From contig JAQTTU010000001.1 of assembly GCA_028710605.1 (NCBI GenBank), positions 1 through 64,000 of the forward strand: a stretch of 64,000 nucleotides of DNA, written 5' to 3'. The translations under genes were made by a program, and so were the position numbers. This DNA comes from Sideroxydans sp. Lineage in GTDB: Bacteria > Pseudomonadota > Gammaproteobacteria > Burkholderiales > Gallionellaceae. The notes under the pieces were generated by a model. The model ran no database searches and was not told the origin of the DNA. It was given only the letters and a program-made list of their open reading frames with translations. This document shows positions 1 through 64,000 of the stretch, one piece after another (the stretch's first letter is position 1; every line of letters starts with the position of its first letter).

Positions 1-2
1 AC

Positions 3-134
3 AAGGCGGCTCAACACAGCCACCGGGGCCCGAACATACAGACCGACAAGCCCAAGTCAAAAAGCAGTTGGATTCCGACCAAGGATCTGGTGCAGGGCAA
101 ACAGCACCTGTCCTCCAAACGCCGCAAGCCTTAA
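3..134 (+). CDS. C-terminal fragment of an unknown protein (truncated by window edge)
   Basis: Reading frame 3 is open from the first base of the window and ends at TAA 132-134, giving a 43-residue tail rich in Lys, Arg, Ser and Gln that finishes in SSKRRKP. A basic hydrophilic tail is common at real protein ends, and the non-repeat sequence stops just after it, where the repeat pile begins. Frame 2 is also open but runs on into repeat-derived peptide, so I prefer frame 3. No family is recognisable and no function is proposed. Confidence 0.35.
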   Translation, partial: KAAQHSHRGPNIQTDKPKSKSSWIPTKDLVQGKQHLSSKRRKP

Positions 135-148
135 GTCGAACGAACGGG

Positions 149-345
149 GTCAGCATCTCATGGCACTCGGTTAAGAAAAATCGACGGAAACTCCCTCCCC
201 TTCAAGGGGAGGGTTGGGGTGGGGATGGGGGCATAAGTGACGCAAAAACCCATCCCCATCCTAGCCTTCCCCTTGAAGGGGAAGGAACGGTTTACTTGCT
301 ACTTCGTGCGTTTGAGGCTTATCCGAGTGCCATGAGGGTCAGCAT
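149..345. repeat. Inverted-repeat element with a nested C-rich palindrome
   Basis: Arms at 157-175 and 318-336 are inverted copies (CTTANCCGAGTGCCATGAG) with one mismatch, with extended similarity outward. Nested between them, 190-288 holds a second inverted pair built on CTCCCCTTCAAGGGGAG and its counterpart CCCCTTGAAGGGG, related to the C-rich palindromic family seen elsewhere in the window. One mobile repeat has apparently landed inside another. No gene is visible here. Confidence 0.7.
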
Positions 346-373
346 CGAAATACTTTCTCGTGGCGGCAGTCGA

Positions 374-454
374 GTAGGTCGGGTTAGCGCAGCGTAACCC
401 GACAATGTTTTGAATACGACGGATGTCGGGTTACGCTGCGCTAACCCGACCTAC
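374..454. repeat. GTAG...CTAC-bounded palindromic element
   Basis: GTAGGTCGGGTTAGCGCAGC at the left is mirrored by its reverse complement ending in CTAC at 454. The paired arms form a long hairpin or BIME-like pair. Bounded by GTAG/CTAC like several other palindromes in the window. Confidence 0.75.
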
Positions 455-487
455 CTTCTGCAATATGTTTTCAGCCCCCACTACCCC

Positions 488-553: not shown

Positions 554-599
554 CACGATGTGCTGTTTTCAAATTGCATTCCAAAGGGCAGTTCAAAGG

Positions 600-3481: not shown

Positions 3482-3595
3482 CCCCTCTCCCGCAGGCGGG
3501 AGAGGGTTAGGGTGAGGGACGTTGAGCATGTACAAATTTTATTGCATCTCACAGACCCTCATCCCCAGCCCTTCTCCCGCCTGCGGGAGAAGGGA
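3482..3595. repeat. Paired inverted C-rich element (CTCTCCCGCAGGCGGGAGAG family)
   Basis: Two palindromes, CTCTCCCGCAGGCGGGAGAG and TTCTCCCGCCTGCGGGAGAA, are each followed or preceded by conserved GGTTAGGGTGAGGG / CCCTCATCCCCAGCCC arms and separated by about 35 nt. The same architecture recurs at 28989, 43531 and 60549, and half elements lie inside mfd, gluQ, tgpA and the nrdJ intein. Confidence 0.85.
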
Positions 3596-3668
3596 GCAAA
3601 AACGAGTGTCACATTGCCGTCATCTACACCGCCTAAAATCCGCACGAATTCCAAATAGCCAAAAAATT

Positions 3669-3714: not shown

Positions 3715-3728
3715 CCAGGAGAAGATTC

Positions 3729-20142: not shown

Positions 20143-22188
20143 ATGAAACTCTCCGCCCCGCTCACCTACGGTCTCATCGCCTGCATCCTGCTGGTCAGCG
20201 CGCCGCACGCGGAGCACTTGCCGTTGTGGGCGAGCGCGTTTGGCGCGGCATTGCTGGTTTGGCGCGCTTATCTCACCTACAGCGGCAATCCTCTGCCCGC
20301 GCGCTTGCTGTTGCTGCTCATCACTGTCGCCAGCGTGCTCGCCATCATCATCAGTTTCCACACCTTGTTCGGGCGCGAGGCCGGAGTCACTCTACTGATT
20401 CTGCTGGCCGCGCTCAAGCTGCTGGAGTTGCGCGCGGTACGCGATGCCACGGTGCTGATCTATCTGTCGTGCTTCATCATCATCACCAATTTTTTCTATT
20501 CGCAAAGCATCCCCACCGCACTGTTCATGCTGTTCACTTTGCTGCTCATCATGGCGACCTGGGTGCATTTGCAAACGGGCACACTGGCCTTCAAACCGCG
20601 CCTGCGTATCGCCGGCATCTTGTTGCTGCAAGCCATTCCGCTGTCGTTCATCCTGTTCGTGCTGTTCCCGCGCGTGCAGGGGCCGCTGTGGGGCATGCCG
20701 CAGGATGCTTACGCCAGCAGCGGTTTGTCCGACACCATGTCGCCGGGCAGCATGAGCAGGTTATCGCTGTCAGATGCGGTGGCATTCCGCGTCACGTTCA
20801 ACGACATAGTGCCGCGCCGCGATCAACTGTATTGGCGCGGTCCGGTGCTGTGGAATTTCGACGGCTCTACCTGGACGCGCGGACGCAATGCCACCCTGCG
20901 CCAGCCGACACTCACCGATGCGGGCAATCCGGTGGATTACACGGTGACGCTGGAGCCGCACAACAAGCTGTGGCTATTCGCGCTGGATATGCCGAGCAAG
21001 ATGTCCATCCCCGCAGTTCAAACAACGGATTTTCAGGTGTTGAGCCAAACGCCGGTCAACGCGCGCACCCGCTACAACGCGACTTCGCTGCTTTCCTACC
21101 GCGCCAATCTGGATGAAGCGCCACTGCAACTGCAACGCGCGCTGGCTCTGCCGCGCGGCTACAACCCGCAGGCCATCCAACTCGCCGCAGAATGGCGCGT
21201 GCAAGCCGAGAGTGTTACCTCACCCCAGCCCTCTCCCGGTGGGAGTACCAAAGGTAGGCAATCCACTGCCCAGCAAGCTGGGCGTGGGATTGACACAGGG
21301 GGCAATCGTCCGCAAGCGGAAATTGCTGAATCCTTGGTGCGCACTGCGCTCACCTATTTCAACCGCGAGAATTTCGAATACACGCTGGAACCGCCGTTGC
21401 TCGGCATGAACAGCGTGGATGATTTCCTGTTCAAAACCAGACAAGGTTTCTGCGAACACTACGCGGGCAGCTTCGTGTTCCTGATGCGCGCGGCGGGGGT
21501 TCCGGCGCGTGTGGTCACCGGCTATCAGGGCGGCGAATATAACGACCTCGGCGGCTATTACATCCTGCGCCAGTCCGACGCGCACGCCTGGGCGGAAGTG
21601 TGGTTGCAGGATCGCGGCTGGGTGCGCATCGACCCCACGGCGGCCATTGCGCCGGAGCGCATTCGGAGCGGTTTGCGCGCCGCCCTGCCGGACAGCGCCG
21701 ACTTGCCATTCTTTATGCGCACGCAGTCGCCGTTGCTGCTCAAACTGCGCTTCAATCTCGACGCGCTGACCAACCAGTGGAACCAGTGGGTGCTGGGTTA
21801 CAACACCGAACGCCAGTTCGCTTTCCTCACCCGTTTGGGCATGGAAGAGGTCAGCTGGCAGAATATGGCGCTCGACATGTTGGCCGGAGTTGCCCTATTG
21901 ACGGGCATCTTCACGTTATGGCTGCTGCGCCGCATGCTGCCGAAACAGGCCGATGCGGTGCAGACAGCATGGCTGAAACTCTGCCGCAAACTGGAAAAAG
22001 CCGGGTTACCGCGCGCGGCGCATGAAGGGGCGCGGGATTATGCGGCGCGTGTTGCCGTTGCCCGACCGGAACTGGCCGCGCCCCTGCACGACATTGCCGC
22101 GCGCTATGTATCGTTGCGCTACGAGGGCAAGGTCGGCAAAGAAGAGTCGATTGCATTCAGGGATGCGGTGCGCGCCTTCAAGTTATAA
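20143..22188 (+). CDS. TgpA-type membrane transglutaminase-like protein
   Basis: 681 residues. Five or six transmembrane helices fill residues 1-190, then a periplasmic region with DUF3488 and a transglutaminase core, a final transmembrane helix near 585-600 (GVALLTGIFTLWLLRR) and a C-terminal DUF4129-like cytoplasmic tail. The catalytic triad is present: Cys437 in TRQGFCEHYAG, His481 in SDAHAWAEVW and Asp497 in RIDPTAA. Residues about 358-395, just before the core, consist of translated repeat DNA and are not expected in relatives. Essential in Pseudomonas; substrate unknown. Partner of the MoxR and DUF58 proteins upstream. Confidence 0.92.
   Translation: MKLSAPLTYGLIACILLVSAPHAEHLPLWASAFGAALLVWRAYLTYSGNPLPARLLLLLITVASVLAIIISFHTLFGREAGVTLLILLAALKLLELRAVRDATVLIYLSCFIIITNFFYSQSIPTALFMLFTLLLIMATWVHLQTGTLAFKPRLRIAGILLLQAIPLSFILFVLFPRVQGPLWGMPQDAYASSGLSDTMSPGSMSRLSLSDAVAFRVTFNDIVPRRDQLYWRGPVLWNFDGSTWTRGRNATLRQPTLTDAGNPVDYTVTLEPHNKLWLFALDMPSKMSIPAVQTTDFQVLSQTPVNARTRYNATSLLSYRANLDEAPLQLQRALALPRGYNPQAIQLAAEWRVQAESVTSPQPSPGGSTKGRQSTAQQAGRGIDTGGNRPQAEIAESLVRTALTYFNRENFEYTLEPPLLGMNSVDDFLFKTRQGFCEHYAGSFVFLMRAAGVPARVVTGYQGGEYNDLGGYYILRQSDAHAWAEVWLQDRGWVRIDPTAAIAPERIRSGLRAALPDSADLPFFMRTQSPLLLKLRFNLDALTNQWNQWVLGYNTERQFAFLTRLGMEEVSWQNMALDMLAGVALLTGIFTLWLLRRMLPKQADAVQTAWLKLCRKLEKAGLPRAAHEGARDYAARVAVARPELAAPLHDIAARYVSLRYEGKVGKEESIAFRDAVRAFKL
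21214..21330. repeat. Repeat DNA inside tgpA
   Basis: CCTCACCCCAGCCCTCTCCC is a half copy of the C-rich family, followed by a second palindrome, CAATCC...CCCAGCAAGCTGGGCG...GGATTG. The reading frame passes through without a stop and adds about 39 residues between EWRVQAE and LVRTALTYF. Confidence 0.75.
21894..21915. repeat. REP core embedded in tgpA coding sequence
   Basis: Twenty-two consecutive bases, beginning CCTATTGACGGGCATCTTCA, are identical to the REP-like core at 44430-44450. Here they encode LLTGIFT in the last transmembrane helix. Confidence 0.7.
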
Positions 22189-27782: not shown

Positions 27783-28529
27783 TTACTTCATTTGTTGCAC
27801 GGCGAAACACAAGTCCTGCCACGCCTTGGCTTTTTCGGCGGGACTGCGCAACAGGTAGGCGGGATGGTAGGTGACGATGAGCGGCGTACCGTGAAAATCG
27901 TGAACCGTGCCGCGTAGCGAACCCAGCGTGGCATCGCGTCCCAGTAAGGAGGTGGCGGCAACTTTGCCCAGCGCCACGATAAGTTTGGGTTTAATCAGCG
28001 CGATTTGCTGTTGCAGGTAAGGCAGGCAAGCGGCGATCTCGTCCGCTTCCGGGTTGCGGTTGTCGGGCGGGCGGCATTTGACGATGTTGGCGATATACAC
28101 ATTTGCGCCGCGTTTCAATTTGATCGCGGCCAGCATGTTATCCAGCAACTTGCCCGCCTGCCCCACGAACGGCTCACCCCGCGCATCCTCGTCCGCGCCC
28201 GGCCCTTCGCCGACGAACAGCCATTCCGCCTTTTCATCGCCCACGCCGAACACAGTTTGCGTGCAGCCCGCACGCAATTGGCAGGCGGTGCAGTCGCGCA
28301 CTTTTTGTTTGAGTTCGAGCCAACTGCAGGATGGGTTGAGCGAAGCGATACCCATCGCAGTTTGTTGAGCCTCTACAGCACCCGAAACAAGCTCTGCCAC
28401 AGCTGGCGATTCTTGATGGGTATCGGCTGCGCCTCCACCCATCCTACTTGCCTCTACAGGCAAATCGCGCCGCACCCACAAGGGATACAACTTCAACTCG
28501 CGCAATATTTCTTCGTCTCTCAAGTTCAC
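27783..28529 (-). CDS. Uracil-DNA glycosylase, family 4 (Fe-S type)
   Basis: 248 residues from GTG 28529, overlapping the rimI stop by 4 nt. Removes uracil from DNA in base-excision repair. Iron-sulfur ligands Cys80 and Cys83 (RDCTAC), Cys152 (VKCRPP) and Cys168 (AACLP) are present, with the uracil-pocket motif GEGPGADEDARGEPFVG and the C-terminal motif TYHPAYLLR. Residues about 28-67, between the short N-terminal LRELKLYPLWVRR helix and the catalytic domain, are encoded by a palindromic repeat element. This linker varies among homologues, so activity is probably kept. Confidence 0.93.
   Translation of the reverse strand: MNLRDEEILRELKLYPLWVRRDLPVEASRMGGGAADTHQESPAVAELVSGAVEAQQTAMGIASLNPSCSWLELKQKVRDCTACQLRAGCTQTVFGVGDEKAEWLFVGEGPGADEDARGEPFVGQAGKLLDNMLAAIKLKRGANVYIANIVKCRPPDNRNPEADEIAACLPYLQQQIALIKPKLIVALGKVAATSLLGRDATLGSLRGTVHDFHGTPLIVTYHPAYLLRSPAEKAKAWQDLCFAVQQMK
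28328..28446. repeat. GGATGGGT palindromic element inside the udg gene
   Basis: Left arm GGATGGGTTGAGCGAAGCGA followed by TACCCATC, right arm GATGGGTATCGGCTGCGCC and ACCCATCC, ending CTAC on the plus strand. Read through on the minus strand, it supplies about 40 residues of the glycosylase. Confidence 0.8.
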
Positions 28530-28988: not shown

Positions 28989-29106
28989 TCCCTTCTCCCG
29001 CAGGCGGGAGAAGGGCCGGGGATGAGGGTCGGTGAGTATGCACACCTTTTCGATTCACATTGGAATCCCTCACCCCAACCCCTCTCCCGCCTGCGGGAGA
29101 GGGGCT
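28989..29106. repeat. Paired inverted C-rich element overlapping the tsaB 3' end
   Basis: TTCTCCCGCAGGCGGGAGAA and CTCTCCCGCCTGCGGGAGAG face each other across about 70 nt, same layout as 3482 and 43531. Its right half encodes the last dozen residues and the stop codon of tsaB. Confidence 0.85.
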
Positions 29107-29792
29107 TTCAAAGCTTCTCTCTCGCACGTCTTCAACGCCACTTTGTCGCGCAAATACAGCGGCAGCGCCAGCGCGGCATCCACTGCCTCGCCCCGAACAA
29201 ATGCGGTTGCGCCCAACACAGCAATGGCCGCAGCGCGAGGAAACACGCCACTCTCCGCCGCATCTGCCCGAAGATGCCCGTCGTATCTGGCTTGCAGCGC
29301 AGCGCCCTGCACGGCAAAACCATTTCCCGCACCGCACCAGCCGTCACCATCAGGTACAGGCGCGTCTTCGGCCTTGCACAAGCACGGTTCAATCGCCGCG
29401 CGCCATTCGCCGTTGTGTTTTTCATACGCCGCCAGGTACAGCTCGCCCATGCGCGCGTCCAGCGCCGCGATGACTTTTTCCTTGCCGCAAGTTTCCGCCA
29501 CCGCTTGCAGCGTGCACACGCCGACCACATTCAAGTTCGCCCCCAGCGCCAAGCCTTGCGTCACGCCGCACGCAATGCGCACGCCGGTAAACGAGCCGGG
29601 ACCTTTGCCGAAAGCGATGCCGTCCAAATCCCCAATCCTCAATCCAGCATCCTTGAGCAAAGCATCCAGCATCGCCATCAACACTTCGGAATGTTTTTGT
29701 CCGACCAGCTCGCTGCGCTCACTCACCGCGCCGTCTTGCCACAGCGCGACGGAACAATATTCGGTGGAGGTTTCTAAAGCGAGAATTTTCAT
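29070..29792 (-). CDS. tsaB: tRNA threonylcarbamoyladenosine biosynthesis protein TsaB
   Basis: 240 residues. TsaB is the scaffold partner of TsaD in making t6A on tRNAs that read ANN codons. N-terminal ILALETSTEYCSVAL, then the family motif FGKGPGSFTGVRIACGVTQGLALG and the ASKHA-like fold to the end. The natural C-terminus has been replaced: the final residues after CEREALK (APLPQAGEGLG) and the TGA stop are read from a C-rich palindromic repeat. The core is complete, so function is likely kept. First gene of the tsaB-rimI-udg run. Confidence 0.94.
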   Translation of the reverse strand: MKILALETSTEYCSVALWQDGAVSERSELVGQKHSEVLMAMLDALLKDAGLRIGDLDGIAFGKGPGSFTGVRIACGVTQGLALGANLNVVGVCTLQAVAETCGKEKVIAALDARMGELYLAAYEKHNGEWRAAIEPCLCKAEDAPVPDGDGWCGAGNGFAVQGAALQARYDGHLRADAAESGVFPRAAAIAVLGATAFVRGEAVDAALALPLYLRDKVALKTCEREALKAPLPQAGEGLG

Positions 29793-33763: not shown

Positions 33764-36700
33764 ATGCTGTTCGCCTCAACCCACTCCCGCCCGCGCTATA
33801 CCAATTTAACCGGCTCATCCGATGCACTGGCCTTGGCGCAATACGCCACGCGACATTCACCGCTGGTCATCATCGCCGCCAATGCGCTTGAAGCACAGCG
33901 GCTGGTGGAGGAGATTCCGTTCTTCGATCCCAAATTGCGCGTGCATCTGCTACCGGACTGGGAGACGCTGCCTTACGACCAGTTCTCGCCGCATCAGGAT
34001 TTGATCTCCGAACGCCTCGCCACGTTGCACCACATCCGCAGTCAAGCTTGCGATGTGGTCGTGGTGCCAATCACCACGGCGCTGTATCCGCTGCCGCCGG
34101 TGTCGTATCTGGCGGCGTACACCTTCTTCCTGAAAAAAGGCGAGACGCTGAACCTCGATGCTTTCCGCCAGCAGATGACGCTGGCCGGTTACAACCACGT
34201 GCAGCAGGTGCTCACCCCCGGCGAATACTGCGTGCGCGGCGGCATCATCGACCTGTTCGCCATGGGCAGCCTGCTGCCCTACCGCATCGACCTGTTCGAC
34301 GACGAGATCGAGACCATTTCTACGTTCGATGTGGACACCCAGCGCACGCTGTATCCCGTGCCGGAAATCCGCCTGCTGCCCGCGCGCGAGTTCCCGATGG
34401 ACGACAAAGGACAGGCGCGCTTCCGCCAGAGCTTCCGCGACCGCTTCGAAGGCGACCCGTCCAAATCGCGCATCTACAAAGACGTGAGCAAAGGCATCGC
34501 CCCGGCGGGCATCGAGTATTACCTGCCGCTGTTCTTCGAGCAGACCGCCACGCTGTTCGACTACCTGCCAAAAAATGCCACGCTGTGTCTGCATCACGAT
34601 GTGGACGAGGCCATCGCTTCCTTCGGCAAGGATGCGGCTTCGCGCTACAACTTGTTAAGAGGCGATCCGCAGCATCCGTTGCTGGAAACGAAAGAATTGT
34701 TTTTGGATGGGGAGCAGTTTTTTATCAGGGTTAAAGAATTCGCAAGAGTGGATGTGATTGCCACGAGTGTTCCCTCACCCCTAGCCCCTCTCCCGGTGGG
34801 CGAGGGGGACTCAAGCTCCCTCTCCCCCCGGGAGAGGGCTGGGGTGAGGGAAGACTCTAAAAACGCCACCCGCTGCCCAACCACCCCCATCCCCCCCATC
34901 GCCGTTGACCGCCGCGCCGAAGTTCCCACGCAGAAATTCGAGGATTTCCTGCGCAGCTACAAAGGCCGCACCTTGCTGCTCGCCGAAAGCCTGGGCCGAC
35001 GCGAGATCATGTCCGGCTACCTGAAGGAATATGGCCTGCTGCCCGCCGTATGCGAAGACAGCACTCCTCCCCTGACAAGGGGAGGCCGGGAGGGGTTTGG
35101 GGTTTACGCCGCTTTCCTCGCCAGCGCCGAAAAGTTCATGCTCGGAGTCGGCCCGTTGCAGATCGGCTTTGCTCTTCCTGACGAAAACATTTCCATCGTC
35201 ACCGAAACCGAACTCTACGCCGCGCAACCGCGCAGCCGCGCCAATCGCATAGCGAAGAAGAGCAACGTGGAAGGCATGTTGCGCGATCTGTCCGAGCTCA
35301 AGACCGGCGATCCGGTGGTGCATGAGCAGCACGGCATCGCGCGTTATCGCGGCCTGGTGAATCTCGATCTGGGCGAAGGCGAGAACGAATTCTTGCTGCT
35401 GGAATATGCGGGCGAGGACAAGCTGTATGTGCCGGTGTCGCAGTTGCACGTCATCAGCCGCTACAGCGGCGGCGCGCCGGAAGCCGCGCCGCTGCACAAG
35501 CTGGGCAGCGGCACGTGGGACAAAGCCAAGCGCCGCGCCATGCAGCAAGTGCGCGACACCGCCGCCGAGCTGCTGAACATCTACGCGCAGCGCGCCATTC
35601 GCAAAGGCCACGCGTTCAAGCTCACTTACCACGACTACGAAGCGTTTGCTGCCGGGTTCGGTTTTGAAGAAACCGCCGATCAGGCCGCCGCCATCGAAGC
35701 GGTGTTGCTCGATCTGCAATCCGGCAAGCCGATGGACAGGCTCATTTGCGGCGACGTGGGTTTCGGTAAGACCGAAGTGGCGTTGCGCGCCGCGTTCGTC
35801 GCGGTGATGGATGGCAAGCAAGTGGCGGTGCTGGTGCCCACCACGCTGCTGGCCGAACAGCACTTCCAGAATTTCTCCAACCGCTTCGCCGACTGGCCGA
35901 TCAAGATCGCCGAATTGTCGCGCTTCCGTTCGGCCAAGGAAGTGACACAGGCGCTGAAAGATTTGGCCGACGGCAAGCTGGACATCGTCATCGGCACGCA
36001 CAAGCTGATCCAGAAAGATGTGAAGTTCCACAACCTCGGTTTGGTGATTCTCGACGAAGAGCATCGCTTCGGTGTGCAGCAGAAGGAAAAACTCAAGGCG
36101 TTGCGTGCCGAGGTGGACGTGCTCACGCTCACCGCCACGCCCATCCCGCGCACGCTGGCGATGTCGCTGGAAGGCCTGCGCGATTTCTCGGTGATCGCCA
36201 CCGCGCCGCAGCGCCGCCTGTCGATCAAGACCTTCGTCAGCAGCTTCAGCCAAGGCATCATCCGCGAAGCCGTGCTGCGCGAACTCAAGCGTGGCGGGCA
36301 GGTTTATTTCCTGCACAACGAAGTCGATACCATCGGCAACATGCTGGAGAAACTGGAGACGCTGCTGCCGGAAGCGCGCATCCGCGTGGCGCACGGGCAG
36401 ATGGGCGAACGCGATCTGGAAGCGGTGATGCGCGACTTCCACCACCAGCGTTTCAACGTGCTGTTGTGCTCCACGATTATTGAAACCGGCATCGACGTGC
36501 CGACAGCCAACACCATCATCATGAACCGCGCCGACCGCTTCGGCCTCGCGCAGTTGCACCAGTTGCGCGGTCGCGTCGGACGTTCGCACCATCAGGCTTA
36601 CGCCTATCTGCTGGTGGACAGCATGGACGGCCTCACTTCACAAGCGAAGAAAAGATTGGAAGCGATTCAGGCCATGGAACAACTGGGCAGCGGCTTCTTC

Positions 36701-37297
36701 CTTGCCATGCACGATCTGGAAATTCGCGGCGCGGGCGAAGTGCTGGGCGAATCGCAAAGCGGCGAAATGCAGGAGATCGGCTTCTCGCTCTACAACGACA
36801 TGCTGAGCGCCGCCATCTCGTCGCTGCGACAGGGGCACGAGCCGGACATGACCCACCCGCTGGGCGTGACCACCGAGATCAACCTGCACACGCCCGCGCT
36901 GCTGCCGAACGATTATTGCGGCGACATCCACCAGCGTCTGGTCATCTACAAACGCCTGGCCAACTGCAACACGCAGCAAGACCTGGACGACATGCATCAG
37001 GAACTGATAGACCGCTTCGGCCTGCTGCCCGAACTCGCGCAAACCTTGCTCGACAGCCACCGCCTGCGCATCATGGCCAAGCCGCTGGGCATCTGCAAAG
37101 TGGATGCGTCATCGGAAGCGATCACCATCCAGTTCGTGCCCAACCCGCCCATCGACCCGATGAAAGTCATCACCCTGATCCAGAGCAAACGCCACATCAA
37201 AATGGCGGGGCAGGACAAGCTGAAGATCGAATTGAAGTATGGGGATTTGGGGCAAAGGGTGCTGGCGATCAGGAATTTCTTTGGGGAGTTGAAGTAA
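33764..37297 (+). CDS. mfd: Transcription-repair coupling factor
   Basis: 1177 residues. Mfd removes RNA polymerase stalled at lesions and recruits UvrA. UvrB-like N-terminal part (LPDWETLPYDQFSPHQDLISERL, PGEYCVRGGIIDLF), RNA-polymerase-interacting domain (GDPVVHEQHGIARYRGL), SF2 translocase with Walker A GDVGFGKTE near 663 and DEEH near 764, TRG motif region and C-terminal D7. Two stretches, residues about 337-363 and 434-447, are translated repeat DNA; they flank or fall in the poorly conserved D3 region. A TATAAT box is at 33732-33737. The frame is uninterrupted, so the protein is probably functional and longer than usual. Confidence 0.96.
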   Translation: MLFASTHSRPRYTNLTGSSDALALAQYATRHSPLVIIAANALEAQRLVEEIPFFDPKLRVHLLPDWETLPYDQFSPHQDLISERLATLHHIRSQACDVVVVPITTALYPLPPVSYLAAYTFFLKKGETLNLDAFRQQMTLAGYNHVQQVLTPGEYCVRGGIIDLFAMGSLLPYRIDLFDDEIETISTFDVDTQRTLYPVPEIRLLPAREFPMDDKGQARFRQSFRDRFEGDPSKSRIYKDVSKGIAPAGIEYYLPLFFEQTATLFDYLPKNATLCLHHDVDEAIASFGKDAASRYNLLRGDPQHPLLETKELFLDGEQFFIRVKEFARVDVIATSVPSPLAPLPVGEGDSSSLSPRERAGVREDSKNATRCPTTPIPPIAVDRRAEVPTQKFEDFLRSYKGRTLLLAESLGRREIMSGYLKEYGLLPAVCEDSTPPLTRGGREGFGVYAAFLASAEKFMLGVGPLQIGFALPDENISIVTETELYAAQPRSRANRIAKKSNVEGMLRDLSELKTGDPVVHEQHGIARYRGLVNLDLGEGENEFLLLEYAGEDKLYVPVSQLHVISRYSGGAPEAAPLHKLGSGTWDKAKRRAMQQVRDTAAELLNIYAQRAIRKGHAFKLTYHDYEAFAAGFGFEETADQAAAIEAVLLDLQSGKPMDRLICGDVGFGKTEVALRAAFVAVMDGKQVAVLVPTTLLAEQHFQNFSNRFADWPIKIAELSRFRSAKEVTQALKDLADGKLDIVIGTHKLIQKDVKFHNLGLVILDEEHRFGVQQKEKLKALRAEVDVLTLTATPIPRTLAMSLEGLRDFSVIATAPQRRLSIKTFVSSFSQGIIREAVLRELKRGGQVYFLHNEVDTIGNMLEKLETLLPEARIRVAHGQMGERDLEAVMRDFHHQRFNVLLCSTIIETGIDVPTANTIIMNRADRFGLAQLHQLRGRVGRSHHQAYAYLLVDSMDGLTSQAKKRLEAIQAMEQLGSGFFLAMHDLEIRGAGEVLGESQSGEMQEIGFSLYNDMLSAAISSLRQGHEPDMTHPLGVTTEINLHTPALLPNDYCGDIHQRLVIYKRLANCNTQQDLDDMHQELIDRFGLLPELAQTLLDSHRLRIMAKPLGICKVDASSEAITIQFVPNPPIDPMKVITLIQSKRHIKMAGQDKLKIELKYGDLGQRVLAIRNFFGELK
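34772..34850. repeat. C-rich palindromic element inside mfd
   Basis: CCCTCACCCCTAGCCCCTCT at the left and AGAGGGCTGGGGTGAGGG at the right. Encodes the mfd segment PLAPLPVGEG...LSPRERAGVRE, a typical translation of this repeat family. Confidence 0.85.
35064..35102. repeat. CTCCCCTGACAAGGGGAG element inside mfd
   Basis: CTCCCCTGACAAGGGGAGGC followed by CGGGAGGGGTTTGG. The same family is intergenic at 44319 and 53049. It encodes PPLTRGGREGFG in Mfd. Confidence 0.8.
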
Positions 37298-48103: not shown

Positions 48104-48364
48104 TTTTGTTGTTTAACCAAAACTGTCTTGTGCAATCAAGGGGGTAGCGCCGTGTCCGATAGCGAATCTGTTTTGCCCGCGACATCCGAATCCGCTAACG
48201 AACATTTTTCGCCCGCCGACCGACACCGAATACCGCAGCGCAGCAATCGGGAACTCGTCCCCGGGAGCGCAAATATTTCCAGACCATCCAAGTCGGAAAT
48301 CCAGTTACTGAATGAACTCAACCCAGACTCGACAGATAAATCTGCATTAGAAGGAATCACCGTC

Positions 48365-51300
48365 ATGACACAAGAAATCAGCACCGAAGTTCTATTGGAA
48401 AAATACGCGGAAGCGGACGAAAAATCGGTGCAGGATGTGCGCCGCCGCGTCGCGCGCGGTTTGGCACAAAACGAGAAACCGGAACAACGCGCCAAATGGG
48501 AAGAAGCATTTTTTCTCGCGCAGGAAAACGGTTTTGTGCCCGCCGGGCGCATCAACTCCGCTGCCGGATTGAAGATTCAAGCCACGCTCATCAACTGCTT
48601 TGTGCAACCCGTGGGCGATGCGATTTCCGGCACCACCGACGGCAAGCCGGGTATCTATGATGCGCTGCAACAAGCCGCCGAAACCATGCGGCGCGGCGGT
48701 GGCGTGGGCTACGATTTTTCTTCCATCCGCCCCGAAGGCGCGCACGTCAAAGGCACCAACTCGCGTGCCAGCGGCCCCATCTCTTACATGCGCGTGTTCG
48801 ACCGTTCGTGCGAAACCGTGGAATCCGCCGGTGCGCGGCGCGGCGCGCAAATGGGCGTGTTGCGTTGCGATCACCCCGACATCGAAAAATTTATCAGCGC
48901 AAAAGACAAAGGCGATCTGCGCAACTTCAACATCTCGGTCGGCGTGACCGATGCGCTGATGCGCGCGGTGGAAGCCGATCAGGAATTCGAGCTGGTGCAT
49001 AGCGCCGAACCTTCGGTTGCGATCAAAGAAGCGGGCGCAGCAAAACGCGCCGACGGCAAATGGGTGTATCGCACCGTGCGCGCCGCCGACCTGTGGAAGC
49101 AGATCATCGCCAGCACCTACGACCACGCCGAACCGGGCGTGCTGTTCATCGACCTGATGAACCGCGACAACAATCTTTCGTATTGCGAAGTGATCGAGGC
49201 CACGAATCCTTGCGTCACTGCCGACACTTGGGTGATGACCGAACAAGGTGCGCGCCAAGTGCGCGAACTGATCGGCAAACCTTTTGCGGCGATGGTCGAT
49301 GGCAAAGCTTATGCAACAGAATCGCAAGGCTTCTTCTTCACCGGCACTAAACCAGTATTGCGGTTAAAAACTGCCGAAGGCCATTCGTTGCGTTTGACCG
49401 CAGACCACAAGGTGCTGCGCGTTTCGCGCATGACGCGTTACACGCGCGAAACGGAATGGGTCAACGCTGGCGAGTTGCGCGCCGACGATCAAATCGTACT
49501 GCATAACCATCGCGCCATATCTGCGTGGAACGGCGCACATACCGAAGAGGAAGGTTATCTGCTCGGCTTGCTGATCGGCGATGGCACGCTCAAAAACGAC
49601 AAAGCCGTGCTGAGCGCTTGGGATGCCACCGCGCTGAAAATCGCCAACGGCGCGGACATGCAGCCCACCCCCGGCATCGCCGCTGTCATGCGCGCCGCCG
49701 AACACGCCGCGCGCTCGTTGCCGCACCGCGCCGATTTCAACGGCTGGCAAAAACCGGTGGATGGTCGCGGCGAATATCGTCTGGCGACTGGCGCATTGCG
49801 CACGCTGGCGCTAGAACTGGGGCTGACTCCCGGCAACAAACGTTTTACTGCGGCGATGGAAACCGCCTCGTCCGATTTTTATCGCGGCGTATTGCGCGGC
49901 ATGTTCGATGCCGACGGTTCGGTGCAAGGCTCGCAAGAAAAAGGCATCAGCGTGCGCTTGACGCAGATCGAGCTCGGTAATTTGCAGGCTGTGCAGCGCA
50001 TGCTGCAACGTCTCGGCATCATCTCCGCCATTTATCAAAATCGCCGTCCCGCCGGTTTGAAAGTCTTGCCGGACGGCAAAGGTGACATCAACCAAGAAAA
50101 TTCATTAGACCGTCATTCCGGCGAAGGCCGGAATCCAGCAATAATAAAAACTCCGCGAAGCGGACAAAACCATGATGTCGTCCCGCTAACGCGGGAATTT
50201 GTTAATCATCTGGATACCGGCCTTCGCCGGTATGACGTGGTTATTACAAATGAATTGGCTTATTCATCCAAGGAATATGACTGCCAGGCGCTGCATGAAC
50301 TCATCATCAGCGGCGAAAACATTGGACGTTATGCCGAGCTGGTTGGCTTTGCCGACAGCGACAAAATGGACAAGCTGAATGGTTTGCTGGCGATGTATCA
50401 TCGCAAGCCCTGCGGGCATGCCCGCTCCCTCTCTCCTAGCTCTCTCCCGCAAGCGGGCGAGAGGGACGCGGTCTCGCTTCGCGAGCATCAATTTGATGCA
50501 GAACGTTTCGTCGCCACCGTGTTGTCGCTGGAAGATGACGGCGTGGAAGATGTGTACGACGTGACCGTGGCCGAGGTACATGCCTTTGATGCCAACGGCT
50601 TGTATATCCACAACTGTGCCGAACAACCGCTGCCGCCCTACGGCTGCTGCTGCCTCGGCTCTATCGACATGACGCGCATGGTGAAGAATCCGTTCTCTGC
50701 TCATGCCGGTTTCGATTACGAGCCGTTCAAACAGTTGGTGCGCGTGGCGGTGCGCATGCTGGACAACGTGTTGGACGTGACCGCGTGGCCGTTGCCGGAG
50801 CAGCAGCAGGAGGCAAAAAACAAACGTCGCATCGGGCTGGGCTTTACCGGATTGGGCGATGCGCTGGTGATGTTGGGCTTGCGTTACGACACCGACGAGG
50901 CGCGCGAATTTGCCGCCGATGTCACGCGCGTGATGCGCGACGAGGCGTATCTCGCGTCGGTGGATTTGGCCATCGAGCGTGGCAAATTCCCGCTGCTGGA
51001 TACGGAAAAATATTTGTCCGCGCCGCGCTTCGCTTCGCGCTTGCCGGATGAGATCAAGCACAAGATTCGCCAGCACGGTTTGCGCAACAGCCACCTGCTT
51101 TCCATCGCGCCCACCGGCACGATTTCGCTGGCGTTTGCCGACAACGCGTCCAACGGCATCGAGCCCGCGTTCTCGTGGTTTTACACGCGCAAGAAACGCA
51201 TGATGGATGGCACATCGAAAGATTATTCGGTGGAAGATCACGCTTGGCGCGTGTTCAAGCAGCAGGGCGGCGATGTGAATAATCTGCCGCCCGAATTTGT

Positions 51301-52594
51301 TTCCGCGCTGGAAATTTCCGCCATCGACCACATGAAAATGGTGGCCGCCGTCGCGCCGTTTATCGACACCTCGATCAGCAAGACCGTCAACGTCCCCGCC
51401 GATTATCCGTATGAAGATTTCAAAGACCTTTACACCGAAGCGTGGAAGGCCGGATTGAAAGGCTTGGCGACGTATAGGCCGAACAGCGTGCTGGGTTCGG
51501 TGTTGTCGGTCACCCCGGAACCAAAGAAAGAAGATCAACCACAGGACTTCGTGTTCGACCAAGACAGACGCATCGTGCTGGAGACCGCGCCCAAGCCCGC
51601 GCTGGCCTCGCTGCGCTGGCCGGGTCGCCCCGCGTTGCCCGCTGGCAGCGAAGGCTGGACTTCACCGGTCGTAAAACATCCGCTCGGCAGTTTCGTGGCG
51701 TTCGTGTCGCACACCAAGAACGGCTGCAACCATCCGTTCGAAGTGTGGGTGAACGGCTCCGAACAACCGCGCGGACTGGGCGCGCTGGCGAAGTCGCTGT
51801 CGATGGACATGCGCACGCGCGATCCGGTGTGGGTGCGCATGAAACTGGAAATGCTGATGAAGTCCGCAGGCGACGACGCGTTCGACATGCCCATGCCGCC
51901 CGACGGCGAAATCAAACGTATGCCGAGTCTGGTCGCCGCGTTCGCGCACTTGCTGAAATACCGCATCGAAGAATTGGGCGCGCTGGAAGTTTGCGACGGC
52001 GTAACCACGCCGATGATGGACGCGCTGTTCGCGCGCAAAGAACCGAAGACCGGCACCGACGGCACCATGAGCTGGACGGTGGATATTTCAAACGGCGGCA
52101 GCGGCGACGACTTCGTGCTGGGCTTGAAAGAACTGATGCTGCCCGACGGCCAACGCCGCCCCTACTCCATGTGGCTGTCCGGCGTGTATCCGCGCGCACT
52201 CGACGGTTTGTGCAAAGTGTTGAGCCTGGACATGCGCGTCATCGACCCCGCGTGGATAGGCATGAAACTGCGCAAGCTCCTCAACTTCGGCGAACCGCTG
52301 GGCGACTTCATGGCGCGCGTACCCGGCGGCGCAAAAATGGAAAGCTACCCCTCCACCGTCTCCTACGTCGCCAAACTCATCATCCACCGCTACGCCATGC
52401 TCGGCATCCTCGACGAACACGGCTACCCGGTGCAGCAAATGGGCGTGCTGGAAATCCCTGAAGGACAGATCAAACCCACGGCGATCAAACCCATCACCGG
52501 CAAGGTGTGCAAGGAATGCGGGAATGCGACGCTGATTAAGAAGGATGGGTGCGAGTTTTGCACTAGTTGTGGGGCGATTGGGGCTTGCGGTTAA
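48365..52594 (+). CDS. nrdJ: Adenosylcobalamin-dependent (class II) ribonucleotide reductase with intein
   Basis: 1409 residues from ATG 48365 (AAGGAAT upstream). The frame is open to 48128 and GTG 48152 is possible, but those residues look non-coding. Exteins: N part with [25 protein letters not shown] and [15 protein letters not shown] part with [30 protein letters not shown], two TSCPD-like domains, and a zinc-ribbon end CKEC...CTSC. An intein (residues 283-750) splits the protein after ATNP, immediately before the active-site Cys of NPCAEQ. Class II enzymes make deoxyribonucleotides with or without oxygen using B12. Regulated by the NrdR box. Confidence 0.96.
50110..50238. repeat. GTCATTCCGGCG element, copy 4, in frame inside the intein
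   Basis: CCGTCATTCCGGCGAAGGCC at the left and GGCCTTCGCCGGTATGACG at the right, 129 nt in all, a multiple of three. It encodes RHSGEGRNP...LDTGLRRYD. Confidence 0.88.
50404..50490. repeat. C-rich repeat in frame inside the intein
   Basis: GCCCTGCGGGCATGCCCGCT followed by CTCTCCCGCAAGCGGGCGAG and GCGGTCTCGCTTCGCGAGC. It encodes [19 protein letters not shown] in a spacer before block F. Confidence 0.75.
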
Positions 52595-57849: not shown

Positions 57850-58875
57850 ATGGCATCTTCAACCGAATATCGCGGGCGCTTCGCCCCTTCCCCCACCGGC
57901 CCCCTTCACCTCGGCTCTCTCGTCGCTGCCGTCGGCAGTTATCTCGATGCGAAACATCATCACGGCACCTGGCTGGTGCGCATGGAGGACCTCGATACGC
58001 CGCGCTGCTTGCCGGGTGCGGCGGAAGACATTCTGCGCACGCTGGAAGCGTTCGAGCTGCATAGCGACGAGCCGGTGATCTATCAGAGTCAGCGCACGGC
58101 GGCTTATGAAGTGGCGTTGCGCCAGTTGCATGCCAGTGGAGCAGTGTATGCGTGTAGCTGTACGCGCAAGGAGATTGCGGATTCGGCGTTGTTGGGGATT
58201 GAGGGGTTTGTTTATCCGGGGACTTGCAGGAACGCCAAGAGCCTCCCTCACCCTAGCCCTCTCCCGGGGGGAGAGGGGACGATTGCTGCGCGCGTTCCAG
58301 CTTGGCGAGTACGCACAGACATTTTGCCCTCCGTTCGCCCTGAGCTTGTCGAAGGGCATTCAGACCAACTCAAGACAGGCTTCGACAGGCTCAGCCCGAA
58401 CGGTTCAGGAATTGAATTTGATGACGAACTCCAAGGCCACATCACCCAACACTTGGAAAGTCAGATCGGCGATTTCGTGGTGAAACGCGCCGATGGTTTG
58501 TTCGCCTATCAACTCGCGGTGGTGGTGGACGATGCATTCCAGCACATCACGCATGTCGTGCGCGGTGCCGACTTGCTGGCTTCCACGCCGCGCCAGATTT
58601 ATATGCAGCGCTTGCTCGGCCTGCATACGCCGCATTACATGCACTTGCCGGTCGCGGTGAATAAAGCGGGCGAGAAATTGAGCAAGCAGACGTTGGCCGC
58701 GCCGGTGGACGTGTCGCGGCCCGTTACCACGTTGCTGCATGTGCTGGAATTTTTGCAGCAACGGCCGCCTGCGGAACTGGGAGATGGCGATATCGGCGAT
58801 GTGCTGGTTTGGGCAATTCTGAACTGGGATGCGAAAAAACTCTTTGGGATGAAAGTGCTTCCCGCACGTTTCTAA
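57850..58875 (+). CDS. gluQ: Glutamyl-Q tRNA(Asp) synthetase
   Basis: 341 residues; homologues are about 290-300. GluQRS attaches glutamate to queuosine in tRNA(Asp). HIGH-like motif GRFAPSPTGPLHLGSL, zinc ligands ACSCTR and PGTCR, the KRADGLFAYQLAVVVDDAFQ core and the KMSKS-like AGEKLSKQ. Two repeat elements are read in frame, residues about 132-144 and 161-185, on either side of the native AWRVRTD segment. Both lie in a surface region after the zinc site. QueD, which makes the tRNA base it acts on, is also in this window. Confidence 0.94.
   Translation: MASSTEYRGRFAPSPTGPLHLGSLVAAVGSYLDAKHHHGTWLVRMEDLDTPRCLPGAAEDILRTLEAFELHSDEPVIYQSQRTAAYEVALRQLHASGAVYACSCTRKEIADSALLGIEGFVYPGTCRNAKSLPHPSPLPGGEGTIAARVPAWRVRTDILPSVRPELVEGHSDQLKTGFDRLSPNGSGIEFDDELQGHITQHLESQIGDFVVKRADGLFAYQLAVVVDDAFQHITHVVRGADLLASTPRQIYMQRLLGLHTPHYMHLPVAVNKAGEKLSKQTLAAPVDVSRPVTTLLHVLEFLQQRPPAELGDGDIGDVLVWAILNWDAKKLFGMKVLPARF
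58244..58279. repeat. C-rich half element inside gluQ
   Basis: CCCTCACCCTAGCCCTCTCC followed by CGGGGGGAGAGGGG. Encodes the gluQ peptide LPHPSPLPGGEG. Confidence 0.8.
58331..58404. repeat. CGCCCTGAGCTTGTCGAAGG element inside gluQ
   Basis: CCGTTCGCCCTGAGCTTGTC plus GAAGGGC at the left and CTTCGACAGGCTCAGCCCGA plus ACGG at the right. Encodes VRPELVEG...FDRLSPNG. Same family as 681-789 and 37299. Confidence 0.85.
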
Positions 58876-60537: not shown

Positions 60538-60548
60538 GGGAGGGCATT

Positions 60549-60728: not shown

Positions 60729-60758
60729 TTGAAGCGGCACTGTCAGGTCGCGTAGAAT
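60729..60758 (+). promoter_or_regulatory. Possible sigma70 promoter of ppdK
   Basis: TTGAAG (60729-60734), 18 nt, TAGAAT (60753-60758). This would give a leader of about 110 nt before ppdK. Judged from consensus only. Confidence 0.45.
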
Positions 60759-60874
60759 GCCCCCGGCAATATCAGGTGCATTTCCGGCCTTTCTGACTCG
60801 GGTATTTTCATATAACCGGTGGTTCAACGTTGTTCTTTGTTTTCTTTTAAGCAGCCAAGTAAGGGAGAGGCACG

Positions 60875-63670
60875 ATGACAAGTAGCAAGCAGTTCATTTA
60901 CGAATTTGAAAAAGGTGACGGCAAAAACAAGATGCTGTTGGGCGGAAAGGGCGCGAATCTGTGCGAAATGACGCAAATCGGCTTGAATGTTCCGCCGGGA
61001 TTCACCATCACCACCGATGCCTGCAATGCTTATCTGGAAAAGAACCAACTGCCCGACGGCTTGATGGATTCCGTCAAAACTCACATGCAAGCGCTGGAAA
61101 AGAAAACCGGCAAGGGCTTCGGCAGCGGCGACAATCCGTTGCTGGTTTCGGTACGCTCCGGCTCGTCCATGTCCATGCCGGGCATGATGGACACCATCCT
61201 TAATCTCGGTCTCAATGAAACTTCGCTGAAAGGCTTAATCAAACAAACCGGCAACGAGCGTTTTGCCTACGACACCTATCGCCGCTTTATCCAGCTGTTC
61301 GGCAAGATCGCACTGGACATTAACGACGAACATTTCGACGAGCGCATGACCGCGATCAAGCGCAAATACGGCGCGCCGCAGGATCTGGATCTGAACGTGG
61401 ACAACCTCAAAGAGCTGTCCAAAGAATTCCTCGCCATCGTGGAACGCCACACCGGCAAACCTTTCCCGCAAGACCCCTACGAACAACTTGAAATCGCCAT
61501 CGGCGCGGTGTTCGGCTCGTGGATGGGCAAACGCGCGGTGGATTACCGCCGCCAATTCAAGATCACCAAAGACCAGGCCAGCGGCACGGCAGTGAATATC
61601 TGCACCATGGTGTTCGGCAACATGGGCAACGACTCCGGCACGGGCGTGGGCTTCACGCGCAACCCCGGCACCGGCGAAAACCTGATCTACGGCGAATATC
61701 TGGTCAACGCGCAAGGCGAAGACGTGGTGGCGGGCATCCGCACACCGAAAGCCATCGCCGAGATGGAAAAGGAAATGCCGGAGATTTACCGTCAGCTGAT
61801 GACGCTGCATAACCGTCTGGAATCGCATTACCACGAAGTGCAGGATTTCGAGTTCACCATCGAGAAAGGCATTTTGTATTGCCTGCAAACGCGCAACGGC
61901 AAGATGAATGCGCGCGGCATGGTGCGCACTTCGGTGGAGTTGTTCCACGAAGGATTGATCTCGAAAGAGCGCGCTATTTTGCGCATTGAACCGGCAATTC
62001 TGGAACAGTTGCTGGTGCCGCAGTTGGCTCCGAACTTCCACGGCAAATCGCTGGCGCAAGGTCTGCCCGCCTCTCCCGGTGCGGCTTCCGGCAAGATCGT
62101 GTTCGATGCCGACACCGCCGAAGCGCGCGGTCGTGCGGGCGAAAAAATTATTCTGGTGCGCGAAGAAACCAAGCCGGAAGACATCCACGGCTTCTTCCAG
62201 GCACAGGGAATTTTGACCAGCCGTGGCGGCAAGACTTCGCACGCTGCCGTGGTGGCGCGCGGCATGGGCAAGCCCTGCGTTTCCGGTTGCGAGGCCATCG
62301 TCATCAACGACGTGCTGCGCAGCGCACAGATCGGCGATACCACACTGCATGAAGGCGACATCATCACCATCGACGGCGGCACCGGCCATGTGTATGCGGG
62401 CGAAGTGCCCACGGTGGAGCCGGAATTTTCGGAAGAGCTGGTCACGCTGCTGAAATGGGCGGACGAAATTTCCCGCCTCAAGGTGATGGCCAATGCCGAC
62501 ACCCCCAACGATGCCGCGCGTGCGCGCGAATTCGGCGCGATGGGTATCGGCCTGTGCCGCACCGAACGCATGTTCAACAGCACCGACCGCCTGCCCATCG
62601 TGCAGGAAATGATCCTGGCCGAGACGCTGGAAGATCGCCAATCCGCGCTGGATCGCCTGCTGCCTATCCAGCGCGCCGACTTCAAAGGCATCTTCAAAGC
62701 CATGAAGGGCTTGCCCGTCACCGTGCGCCTGCTCGACCCGCCGATGCACGAGTTTCTTCCCACCGCCGCGCAACTCGAACTGGAAATCGCCCACCTGCAC
62801 CAACTGCGCGACACCATCAAGGGGCTGGAAGAGTTGCCGGACACGCTGAAGATGCTCAACCCCAAGCTGTACCAGCAATACGCCGACGGCCTGACCAAGC
62901 TGATGGGCGGACTGCAAGACTTCAAGGGATCGCATCTGGAAGAAGATGTCATCAGCAAAAAAGAAATCGTGCTGAAAAAAGTGCGCGCCTTGTCCGAAGT
63001 CAACCCGATGCTGGGGCATAGAGGCGTGCGGCTGGGCATCACCTATCCCGAAATCTATTCCATGCAGATCCGCGCGGTGCTCGAAGCCGCCGCGCTGTGC
63101 GCCAAGGAAGGCATCGAAATTCACCCCGAAATCATGGTGCCGCAAGTGGCCACGGTGGAAGAACTCAAACGTATCCACAGCTACGTGAAACGCATCCATG
63201 CGGAAGTGAACTCGACCTACGGCATTGACGTGCAATTCAAGTTCGGCTCCATGCTGGAAGTGGTGCGTGCCTGCGTGCGCGCCGGACGCATGGCCGAGAT
63301 CGCCGAGTTCTTCTCGTTCGGCACCAACGACCTCACCCAAGCCACCTTCTCGTTCAGCCGCGAAGATGCGGAAAACAAATTCCTGCCCGCTTACAACGAG
63401 ACCGGAATCCTGCAAGACAATCCGTTTGAAGTGCTGGACATCAAGGGTGTCGGACAGATCATGAAGATGGCCATAACAAGGGGTCGCGAGACCAACCCCG
63501 ACCTGAAAATGGGCATCTGCGGCGAACATGGCGGCCACCCCGGCTCCATCCATTTCTGCCACCACATCGGCCTCAACTACGTCTCCTGCTCCGGCCCGCG
63601 CGTGCCTATCGCCCGTCTGGCTGCGGCGCAGGCGAAGTTGATGGAAGCGCAATACCGGGAACCGAGCTGA
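60875..63670 (+). CDS. ppdK: Pyruvate phosphate dikinase
   Basis: 931 residues. Interconverts pyruvate + ATP + Pi and PEP + AMP + PPi. N-terminal ATP-grasp domain (GGKGANLCEMTQIGLNVPPGFTITT, SVRSGSSMSMPGMMDTILNLG), central phosphohistidine domain with His456 in GGKTSHAAVVARGMGKPCVSGCE, and a C-terminal TIM-barrel with GTNDLTQATFSFSRED and the catalytic Cys882 region GICGEHGGHP. A separate gene, preceded by GGGAGAGGC and followed by a terminator. In autotrophs and gluconeogenic organisms it can supply PEP or use PPi. Confidence 0.97.
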   Translation: MTSSKQFIYEFEKGDGKNKMLLGGKGANLCEMTQIGLNVPPGFTITTDACNAYLEKNQLPDGLMDSVKTHMQALEKKTGKGFGSGDNPLLVSVRSGSSMSMPGMMDTILNLGLNETSLKGLIKQTGNERFAYDTYRRFIQLFGKIALDINDEHFDERMTAIKRKYGAPQDLDLNVDNLKELSKEFLAIVERHTGKPFPQDPYEQLEIAIGAVFGSWMGKRAVDYRRQFKITKDQASGTAVNICTMVFGNMGNDSGTGVGFTRNPGTGENLIYGEYLVNAQGEDVVAGIRTPKAIAEMEKEMPEIYRQLMTLHNRLESHYHEVQDFEFTIEKGILYCLQTRNGKMNARGMVRTSVELFHEGLISKERAILRIEPAILEQLLVPQLAPNFHGKSLAQGLPASPGAASGKIVFDADTAEARGRAGEKIILVREETKPEDIHGFFQAQGILTSRGGKTSHAAVVARGMGKPCVSGCEAIVINDVLRSAQIGDTTLHEGDIITIDGGTGHVYAGEVPTVEPEFSEELVTLLKWADEISRLKVMANADTPNDAARAREFGAMGIGLCRTERMFNSTDRLPIVQEMILAETLEDRQSALDRLLPIQRADFKGIFKAMKGLPVTVRLLDPPMHEFLPTAAQLELEIAHLHQLRDTIKGLEELPDTLKMLNPKLYQQYADGLTKLMGGLQDFKGSHLEEDVISKKEIVLKKVRALSEVNPMLGHRGVRLGITYPEIYSMQIRAVLEAAALCAKEGIEIHPEIMVPQVATVEELKRIHSYVKRIHAEVNSTYGIDVQFKFGSMLEVVRACVRAGRMAEIAEFFSFGTNDLTQATFSFSREDAENKFLPAYNETGILQDNPFEVLDIKGVGQIMKMAITRGRETNPDLKMGICGEHGGHPGSIHFCHHIGLNYVSCSGPRVPIARLAAAQAKLMEAQYREPS

Positions 63671-63692
63671 GTTGGTTTTGATTGTGTAGTAG

Positions 63693-63723
63693 AAAAAAAG
63701 GGGGGCGGCTTCCCCCTTTTTTT
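63693..63723 (+). terminator. Rho-independent terminator after ppdK
   Basis: AAAAAAAGGGGG, short loop, CCCCCTTTTTTT, 23 nt after the ppdK stop. Confidence 0.9.
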
Positions 63724-63927
63724 GTTTTTTGTAGGTGTGAATTTACCTCGAAGTGGTTCTTGCGCCCTGTGGGTGTTCACACATATGCACTTTCGCTCAG
63801 ACGTTCCTAATTTCAGGAAAGTATATTCTCCTGTCCGCGCAGACCAGACTCCACAGTAGGTCGCGGTAGCGTGTGCCCCATACTTCAACTATCATAACCG
63901 TCATACAAATAGCTGGGGGAGCGCGCC

Positions 63928-64000
63928 ATGCAAGCTTTACGTTACGTCACCGAATCGATAAACCATCAAGTCATTATCAGCCTGCCGCCCGAACTGGATT
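63928..64000 (+). CDS. N-terminal fragment of a small protein, possibly an antitoxin (truncated by window edge)
   Basis: ATG 63928 with GGGGGAGCG before it opens MQALRYVTESINHQVIISLPPELD and continues past the window. Short openings of this type (aromatic-basic start, then a VxISLPPE strand) occur in antitoxin-like proteins that precede toxin genes. Only 24 residues are visible, so this is a guess. The 257-nt gap before it shows the ppdK terminator and nothing else certain. Confidence 0.45.
   Translation, partial: MQALRYVTESINHQVIISLPPELD

Follow-up and report, generated by a model that had tools for sequence, protein, structure and literature searches.

How do genes for conserved proteins come to hold palindromic repeats and remain readable? 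This question is raised by a 64,000-nucleotide stretch from the genome of an iron-oxidising bacterium, Sideroxydans sp. (3.36 Mb, 35 contigs), corresponding to bases 1-64000 of contig C15 and hereafter called the window. A preliminary description, made from the sequence, had claimed that repeats which are intergenic elsewhere are read in frame in Mfd (two elements), GluQ (two), the intein of NrdJ (two), TgpA (one) and Udg (one), and at the end of TsaB. We located all of these elements in the sequence, with open frames, and compared the genes that carry them with those of relatives, the closest of which by Mfd are Sideroxydans and Gallionella assemblies of the family Gallionellaceae. Loci, most of them from relatives, are given as L-numbered stretches, and many of the relatives are metagenome-assembled genomes (MAGs). 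We observe that the same loops are filled by different repeat families in different relatives, and we propose that the elements very probably insert like repetitive extragenic palindromic (REP) sequences or miniature inverted-repeat transposable elements (MITEs), without regard to frame, selection then retaining those in tolerant loops, where the inserted peptide would be filler.

Palindromic repeats between and within genes

We scanned a 464-kb sample of the genome (the window plus 400 kb), 85% of which is coding according to the gene caller of this analysis, with family thresholds set so that three Markov-shuffled copies of the sample give 0 or 1 matches. The sample contains 247 half-elements of 11 families, in agreement with the earlier claim that several unrelated families are involved. 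Half-elements are about 24-36 nt long, and inverted doublets are common. Merging yields 144 elements, of which 109 are intergenic, 25 lie inside genes and 10 at gene edges, the TgpA element being absent from the inside and intergenic counts. Four of the 25 inside matches (C15 21885, 66870 and 126651; C24 13681) were chance-like on reading and were removed before the openness and family counts, leaving 21 in-gene elements among 140. The main gene-invading family is B (C-rich); other families referred to below by their motifs are G (CGTC, GTCATTCC), I (TTCG, TTCGACAAGCTC), J (GTAG-tagged GGATGGGT) and K (CTCCCC). From a reading of the consensus sequences, a CGTC head is present in G and GTAG in A, C, D, H, and J, with neither in B, I, and K.

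All of the host genes named in the preliminary description are right, but its list is too short. The 464-kb sample adds ten genes, encoding leucyl-tRNA synthetase (LeuRS, gene leuS), UvrD, an S4-domain protein, an ABC ATPase, a transport permease, a DUF559 protein, a GST, EarP (two elements), a sensor kinase and DNA polymerase I (PolA, three families), as well as two weaker cases, the N-terminus of a redoxin and GcvP. Altogether, 17 host genes are found in the sample; among those beyond the window, the comparison with relatives covers PolA and LeuRS. Pfam domains are still recognisable around the inserts, both in the window and elsewhere in the sample, in keeping with the earlier statement that the flanking family motifs are intact.

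A sensor-kinase open reading frame (ORF) at 3522-5045 of the window begins with about 65 codons made up mostly of C-rich and H repeats, and its true start is probably further downstream.

Different repeats in one linker of Mfd

The alignment of Mfd from the window and 35 relatives (36 rows) comprises a 31-row Gallionellaceae clade and 5 outgroup rows. The first Mfd insert is located at the junction of two blocks matched to E. coli-type Mfd, in a linker that we read as occupied in 20 of the 31 Gallionellaceae rows and empty in the other 11, as it is in the five outgroup rows. A repeat scan restricted to the 20 occupied rows, the 11 empty ones lying outside it, found an above-threshold repeat in 16, namely B in 12 and I, H, K, and G in one each; the linker is thus filled by at least five repeat families across the Gallionellaceae. 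The remaining four linkers (L016, L024, L026, and L028) were judged occupied, yet hold no repeat above threshold. On a tree built without the insert columns, with occupancy labels assigned by reading, the linker shows at least 10 changes of presence or absence and at least 17 changes of type, and it differs within the sister pairs L004/L014, L007/L024, and L010/L017. The inserts of L016, L028, and L003 appear composite on reading, and two more insertions are found at other positions of Mfd, in L018 and L023.

The second Mfd insert is present in the window only, being absent in 35 of the 35 other rows, and is a clean 45-nt insertion relative to L001. No target-site duplication was seen at this site, the sole clean empty site, the others being too diverged to judge.

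Two further observations were made at mfd loci. Downstream of mfd, at L001:6479-6586 and L034:6249-6413, another short stretch is similar to the Mfd C-terminus. The mfd gene of L006 has an in-frame stop at codon 214, outside the repeat insert, which points to an assembly error or a broken gene.

Recurrent loops in GluQ, PolA, and LeuRS and rigid control genes

A similar pattern is seen in GluQ, which was compared with 29 loci of relatives and with L011. Both of its inserts fall between the two blocks matched to 1nzj. The first has counterparts, read as similar peptides, in L092 and L093. The loop of the second, again by reading, carries family I in the window and L095, CGTC elements in L093, L098, and L099, and C-rich-like elements in L094 and L096; of the other relatives, L092 has inserts of unclear kind in this loop, a few have short ones and the rest have nothing comparable.

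In PolA, inserts from three repeat families are found in the Sideroxydans protein itself, placed between Pfam domains or in gaps relative to the Klenow fragment. By reading, 9 of 26 rows have C-rich-like inserts in the linker that joins the two exonuclease domains; an H element occupies the same site in this protein and in L213, and a D element is shared in the same way with L222. LeuRS has two sites with C-rich peptides, one of them occupied in 9 of the 22 rows and the other in two rows.

These insert hosts vary widely in length within the genus, with a spread of 76 residues for Mfd (29 rows), 71 for PolA (17) and 59 for LeuS (17), versus 1 residue each for UvrA (13), CarB (13), and RpoB (8). 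This comparison is limited to full-length matches; Mfd from L023 and from L025 is not among them, nor are matches of the other genes that are cut by a contig end, nor the second, 4068-nt RpoB of genome G005 (L330). Since their full-length matches vary by a single residue, UvrA, CarB, and RpoB are free of inserts, including UvrA, which is a repair gene. A lower-sensitivity comparison had shown an apparent UvrA insert in L275, which we place before the start, as the UvrA match of that locus has the same length, 2757 nt, as the others; the RpoB insert from that comparison is the L330 copy and is not repeat-like. Genome G005 has two full-length RpoB matches (L314 and L330), reflecting duplication or contamination.

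Inserts in the NrdJ intein, TgpA, Udg, and TsaB

The NrdJ intein itself is patchy, many relatives having none. It was compared with seven intein-bearing relatives, two further inteins (L144 and L161) being outside the comparison. The first NrdJ insert is absent in all seven, although its borders are blurred, and the second is absent in six of seven, L142 having it as well. Given the patchiness of the intein and this insert shared by the window and L142, repeats may travel with inteins.

In TgpA, the matches of relatives break off at residue 357 and resume at residues 391-399, and none of those listed spans residues 358-390. The insertion appears composite on reading: the C-rich half was recognised by eye, below the scan threshold, and the second sequence has no other copy in the 464-kb sample and loci L001-L120. 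Part of the peptide from this second sequence matches other ORFs of relatives. Udg is the least clean case, its N-terminal linker being long and variable in relatives in a protein-level comparison. TsaB differs from the other cases in that the element forms the end of the gene, supplying the stop and the roughly 11 codons before it; elsewhere in the sample, the gene at C24 86319-87038 has a nearly identical terminal peptide. This ending resembles the GTAG repeats that give neighbouring genes their stop codons in the part of the account of Di Nocera et al. available to us (PMC3733652).

The preliminary description had held that the same segments in repeat-free relatives would speak against insertion. 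What we find are relatives without the segments or with other repeats in their place, Udg being the least clear. The coordinates of all of these features are given in Table 1.

Table 1 Host genes and inserted repeats, with positions in the window unless a locus is given
Feature	Position	Strand	Evidence
mfd (transcription-repair coupling factor), host of two inserts	33764..37297	+	Pfam TRCF, CarD_TRCF_RID, MFD_D3, UvrB_inter; alignment with 35 relatives
Mfd insert 1, C-rich (family B) element in the linker before domain D3	34772..34850	+	alignment, repeat scan
Mfd insert 2, CTCCCC (family K) element, 45 nt	35060..35104	+	alignment, empty-site comparison
gluQ (glutamyl-Q tRNA(Asp) synthetase)	57850..58875	+	Pfam tRNA-synt_1c; match to 1nzj/YadB
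GluQ insert 1, C-rich (family B) element	58245..58280	+	alignment, repeat scan
GluQ insert 2, TTCGACAAGCTC (family I) inverted doublet	58331..58403	+	alignment, repeat scan
DNA polymerase I with three different repeat families inserted	L201:1408-4416		scan, Pfam, alignment
nrdJ-type ribonucleotide reductase	48128..52594	+	Pfam Ribonuc_red_lgC, LAGLIDADG_3, Intein_splicing
NrdJ intein	~49214-50614	+	matches of many relatives limited to residues up to 362 and from 830 on
NrdJ insert 1, CGTC (family G, GTCATTCC) doublet in the homing-endonuclease part of the intein	50110..50238	+	scan, alignment
NrdJ insert 2, C-rich (family B), between the endonuclease and the C-terminal splicing part	50428..50463	+	scan, alignment
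tgpA (transglutaminase-like protein)	20143..22188	+	Pfam TgpA_N, Transglut_core
TgpA 39-codon insertion, C-rich half and second sequence	21214..21330	+	comparison with relatives, alignment
Udg, uracil-DNA glycosylase family gene	27783..28529	-	Pfam UDG
GGATGGGT (family J, GTAG-tagged) inverted doublet in the N-terminal linker of Udg	28326..28447	-	scan, protein-level comparison
tsaB	29070..29792	-	last ~11 codons and stop within C-rich doublet
C-rich doublet at the 3' end of tsaB	28991..29103	.	repeat scan

Frame and peptide of the inserts

The Mfd proteins of the window and L001 are 96% identical, and the first insert of this pair was compared at the DNA level. Over the insert, 72 of 78 positions are identical, and over the preceding 960 nt, which align without gaps, 877 of 960. 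The insert differs by five indels of 1-2 bases with a net length change of zero, so that much of it is read in another frame, which is restored at the insert end. Such compensating indels are expected from selection on the frame and not on the peptide. Conservation of the insert peptide was not found in this pair, the one close pair compared at the DNA level, and the earlier suggestion that the repeats supply new protein segments, in a functional sense, is thus not borne out by it.

By simple arithmetic, about 16% of random insertions (0.49 x 1/3) would be both open and in frame. If all of these were harmless, DNA that is 85% coding should show about 0.95 surviving in-gene copies per intergenic copy; the observed numbers are 21 to 109, from which it follows that about a fifth of the otherwise qualifying in-gene insertions would be tolerated.

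Transposase genes and repeats

The genome has ten matches to PF01797, two of which are parts of one gene. Genes for transposases of the REP-associated tyrosine transposase (RAYT) type are bracketed by repeats, by D in L085, C in L086, and H in L087. None of the ten PF01797 loci has flanking copies of B, G, I, J, or K; B, I, and K show no match at all there, and G and J occur about 1 kb from one PF01797 gene without adjoining it. In the available part of PMC3733652, CGTC elements are said to have no dedicated transposase.

Origin of the inserts

We hypothesize that palindromic REP/MITE-like elements spread by transposition or a similar process, with insertion that is probably blind to the frame. 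The copies surviving inside genes would be those whose length is a multiple of three, which are open in the frame in which they land, and which lie in an interdomain linker or a surface loop. A tolerated insert would be a disordered peptide of roughly 10-60 residues, translated although serving as filler, with selection acting on length modulo 3 and on the lack of stops rather than on its sequence. Later elements could enter or replace earlier ones and, as few loops tolerate inserts, different families would recur at the same sites. The proteins are presumably made with their inserts and presumably work, and the gene-invading families would have moved by such a process.

Several observations weigh against this explanation. 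The families invade genes unequally, which frame-blind insertion alone does not predict: the in-gene share (inside over inside plus intergenic) is 16/44 for B, G, I, J, and K versus 5/81 for A, C, D, E, F, and H (Fisher p 3e-5). This contrast is only suggestive, because the thresholds tolerate weaker identity where the consensus is long, and stricter identity cuts make the contrast fade (p 0.001 at 0.75, 0.025 at 0.79, 0.08 at 0.85, and 0.24 at 0.90). Moreover, empty Mfd linkers are not always clean sites, L007 and L024 differing beyond the insert. Part of the Mfd pattern may therefore go back to an ancient insert that was later lost or replaced, or to gene conversion. Other evidence speaks for the explanation, within limits. 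The lack of peptide constraint comes from one species pair. In a small set of 195 elements from the sample and 33 loci, biased to conserved genes, both flanks of 39 elements match a single protein of another genome, with the frame kept in 36 and not in 3. On reading, about 22 of the 36 hold up as genuine, every one of them in frame, but 15 of these 22 come from the one Mfd loop, and others of the 36 are chance or leader matches; the three frame-shifted cases were placed between genes or upstream of a start by judgement, that of L015 by analogy only. An AlphaFold model of Mfd is also in favour, with a predicted local distance difference test (pLDDT) score below 50 at residues 335-366 (insert 1) and 435-445 (insert 2), but the model is of moderate quality (predicted template modelling score, pTM, 0.44) and several other stretches also fall below 50.

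Other explanations, which are not mutually exclusive, can be set beside frame-blind insertion with a selective filter. The transposase or recombination machinery might prefer loop sequences, or elements might enter or adjoin older repeats, which would be compatible with the filter and would account for several families in one loop, for the composite-looking inserts of TgpA and of Mfd in L016, L028, and L003, and for the existence of RAYT genes flanked by C, D, and H. The hot spots fall, however, in linkers, turns or stretches unaligned with homologues, three rigid genes keep their length, unrelated families meet in the same loops, and to the eye the Mfd alignments show no shared target sequence, although no systematic search for one was made; we regard such targeting as unlikely. 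The preliminary description had offered a choice between selection for frame-preserving insertion and built-in coding potential. Under the second option, the repeats would be open in many frames and selected as portable protein segments. Family B is indeed read in 5 of 6 orientation/phase classes in the sample, a count that may take in one C-rich half from the doubtful leader of the 3522-5045 ORF, and in the Mfd loops in 6 of 6 classes counting every match or 5 of 6 without weaker matches that overlap stronger ones; similar peptides also recur in unrelated proteins. Against this, intergenic copies have on average 2.94 of 6 frames open, close to the 2.75 of shuffled copies, gene-invading families are no more open than others (3.0, shuffled 3.1, versus 3.07, shuffled 2.74), and the peptide differs in the close pair through internal frame slides. 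In-frame insertion with the frames preserved stands, and built-in coding potential, rejected on these open-frame counts, is very unlikely.

The inserts might instead be functional and tune repair or translation proteins, as in the speculation of Di Nocera et al. on mutators and repair genes, and Mfd, PolA, UvrD, and a UDG are indeed among the 17 host genes of the sample. On the other hand, LeuRS, GluQ, EarP, and transport and sensor genes are also hosts, the 13 full-length UvrA of the genus are constant in length, the insert peptide is not conserved in the pair compared, and sister species can be empty; this makes a functional role highly improbable. Targeting of repair genes as such is not supported, with UvrA insert-free and LeuRS hit, the background frequency of repair genes not having been computed. 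An artefact of misassembly, wrong start codons or pseudogenes would fit the many MAGs among the relatives, edge cases such as the start at window 3522 and the stop in the L006 mfd gene, but it is scarcely credible for a pattern common to independent genomes, with open frames and recognisable Pfam domains around the inserts. A bolder extension of our proposal, in which the loops of Mfd, GluQ, LeuRS, and PolA serve as docking sites within genes throughout the family and unrelated repeats replace each other there over evolutionary time, seems to us rather doubtful. If true, it would provide a natural insertion-tolerance scan of housekeeping proteins and might diversify linker length and protein behaviour.

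Comparison with known systems

The preliminary description took the Rickettsia palindromic elements (RPEs) as the only well-known parallel, which is too narrow, since intragenic repeats with GTAG or CGTC tags have already been described in several species (Di Nocera, De Gregorio and Rocco 2013, PMC3733652). In the part of that paper available to us, these REPs are short palindromes, often dimers and mostly intergenic, some of which lie in frame in known proteins, and many of the intragenic ones are in repair genes; X. campestris and X. oryzae carry different REPs at roughly one and the same position in recB, and neutral insertion in linkers or loops is considered. The palindromes described here are likewise present in many copies, mostly intergenic (109 of 144) and in part in frame in known proteins. 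Unlike those of the same partial account, the main invader B, together with I and K, carries neither tag by our reading, at least five families meet in one loop that is occupied in 20 of 31 species, and the present analysis tested which frames are used and how they slide within an insert. Neither Gallionella nor Sideroxydans is mentioned in the main text of PMC3733652, and we found no report of in-frame palindromes in these genera among the titles and abstract starts of the open-licence papers listed by our searches.

RPEs, as far as the available parts of PMC10969869 and PMC3733652 go, are palindromes found in frame in unrelated proteins of one genome, as our elements are. The present elements differ from those so described in being shorter, in being read in several frames and in their host, a member of the Gallionellaceae and not Rickettsia. 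Unlike RPEs, they encode no conserved peptide, as B is read in at least 5 of 6 classes and the frame slides within an insert.

REPINs are inverted doublets of REP sequences, a definition used for the comparison that follows. As with REPINs and RAYTs (Bertels and Rainey 2011, PMC3116915), we observe inverted doublets and RAYT-type genes flanked by C, D, and H. The likeness does not extend to B, I, and K, which have no match at any of the ten PF01797 loci, nor to G and J, which are some 1 kb away from one.

Intragenic repeats were thus already known, and Sideroxydans and its relatives offer an unusually clear case with many families, whose mechanism is probably ordinary. They make translated repeats accessible to study beyond Rickettsia, across many related genomes in which one and the same loop is empty or filled by five families, and two old questions become testable, namely the coding potential of repeats, which is here no more than chance, and a preference for repair genes, for which LeuRS is hit and UvrA is not, before any background computation. 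For annotators, such peptides call for caution as being derived from repeats, and the inserts indicate insertion-tolerant sites in Mfd, PolA, LeuRS, and GluQ.

Other features of the window

Two further repeats of other kinds were noticed. At 23989-24100, just 3' of the minus-strand gene 24083-27700, there is a tandem array of the heptamer TCCTCAA, which looks like a length-variable simple repeat. The minus-strand gene at 6291-7514 contains six direct repeats of about 147 bp, and its product has what we take by eye to be a lipoprotein-like start and a kelch-like motif.

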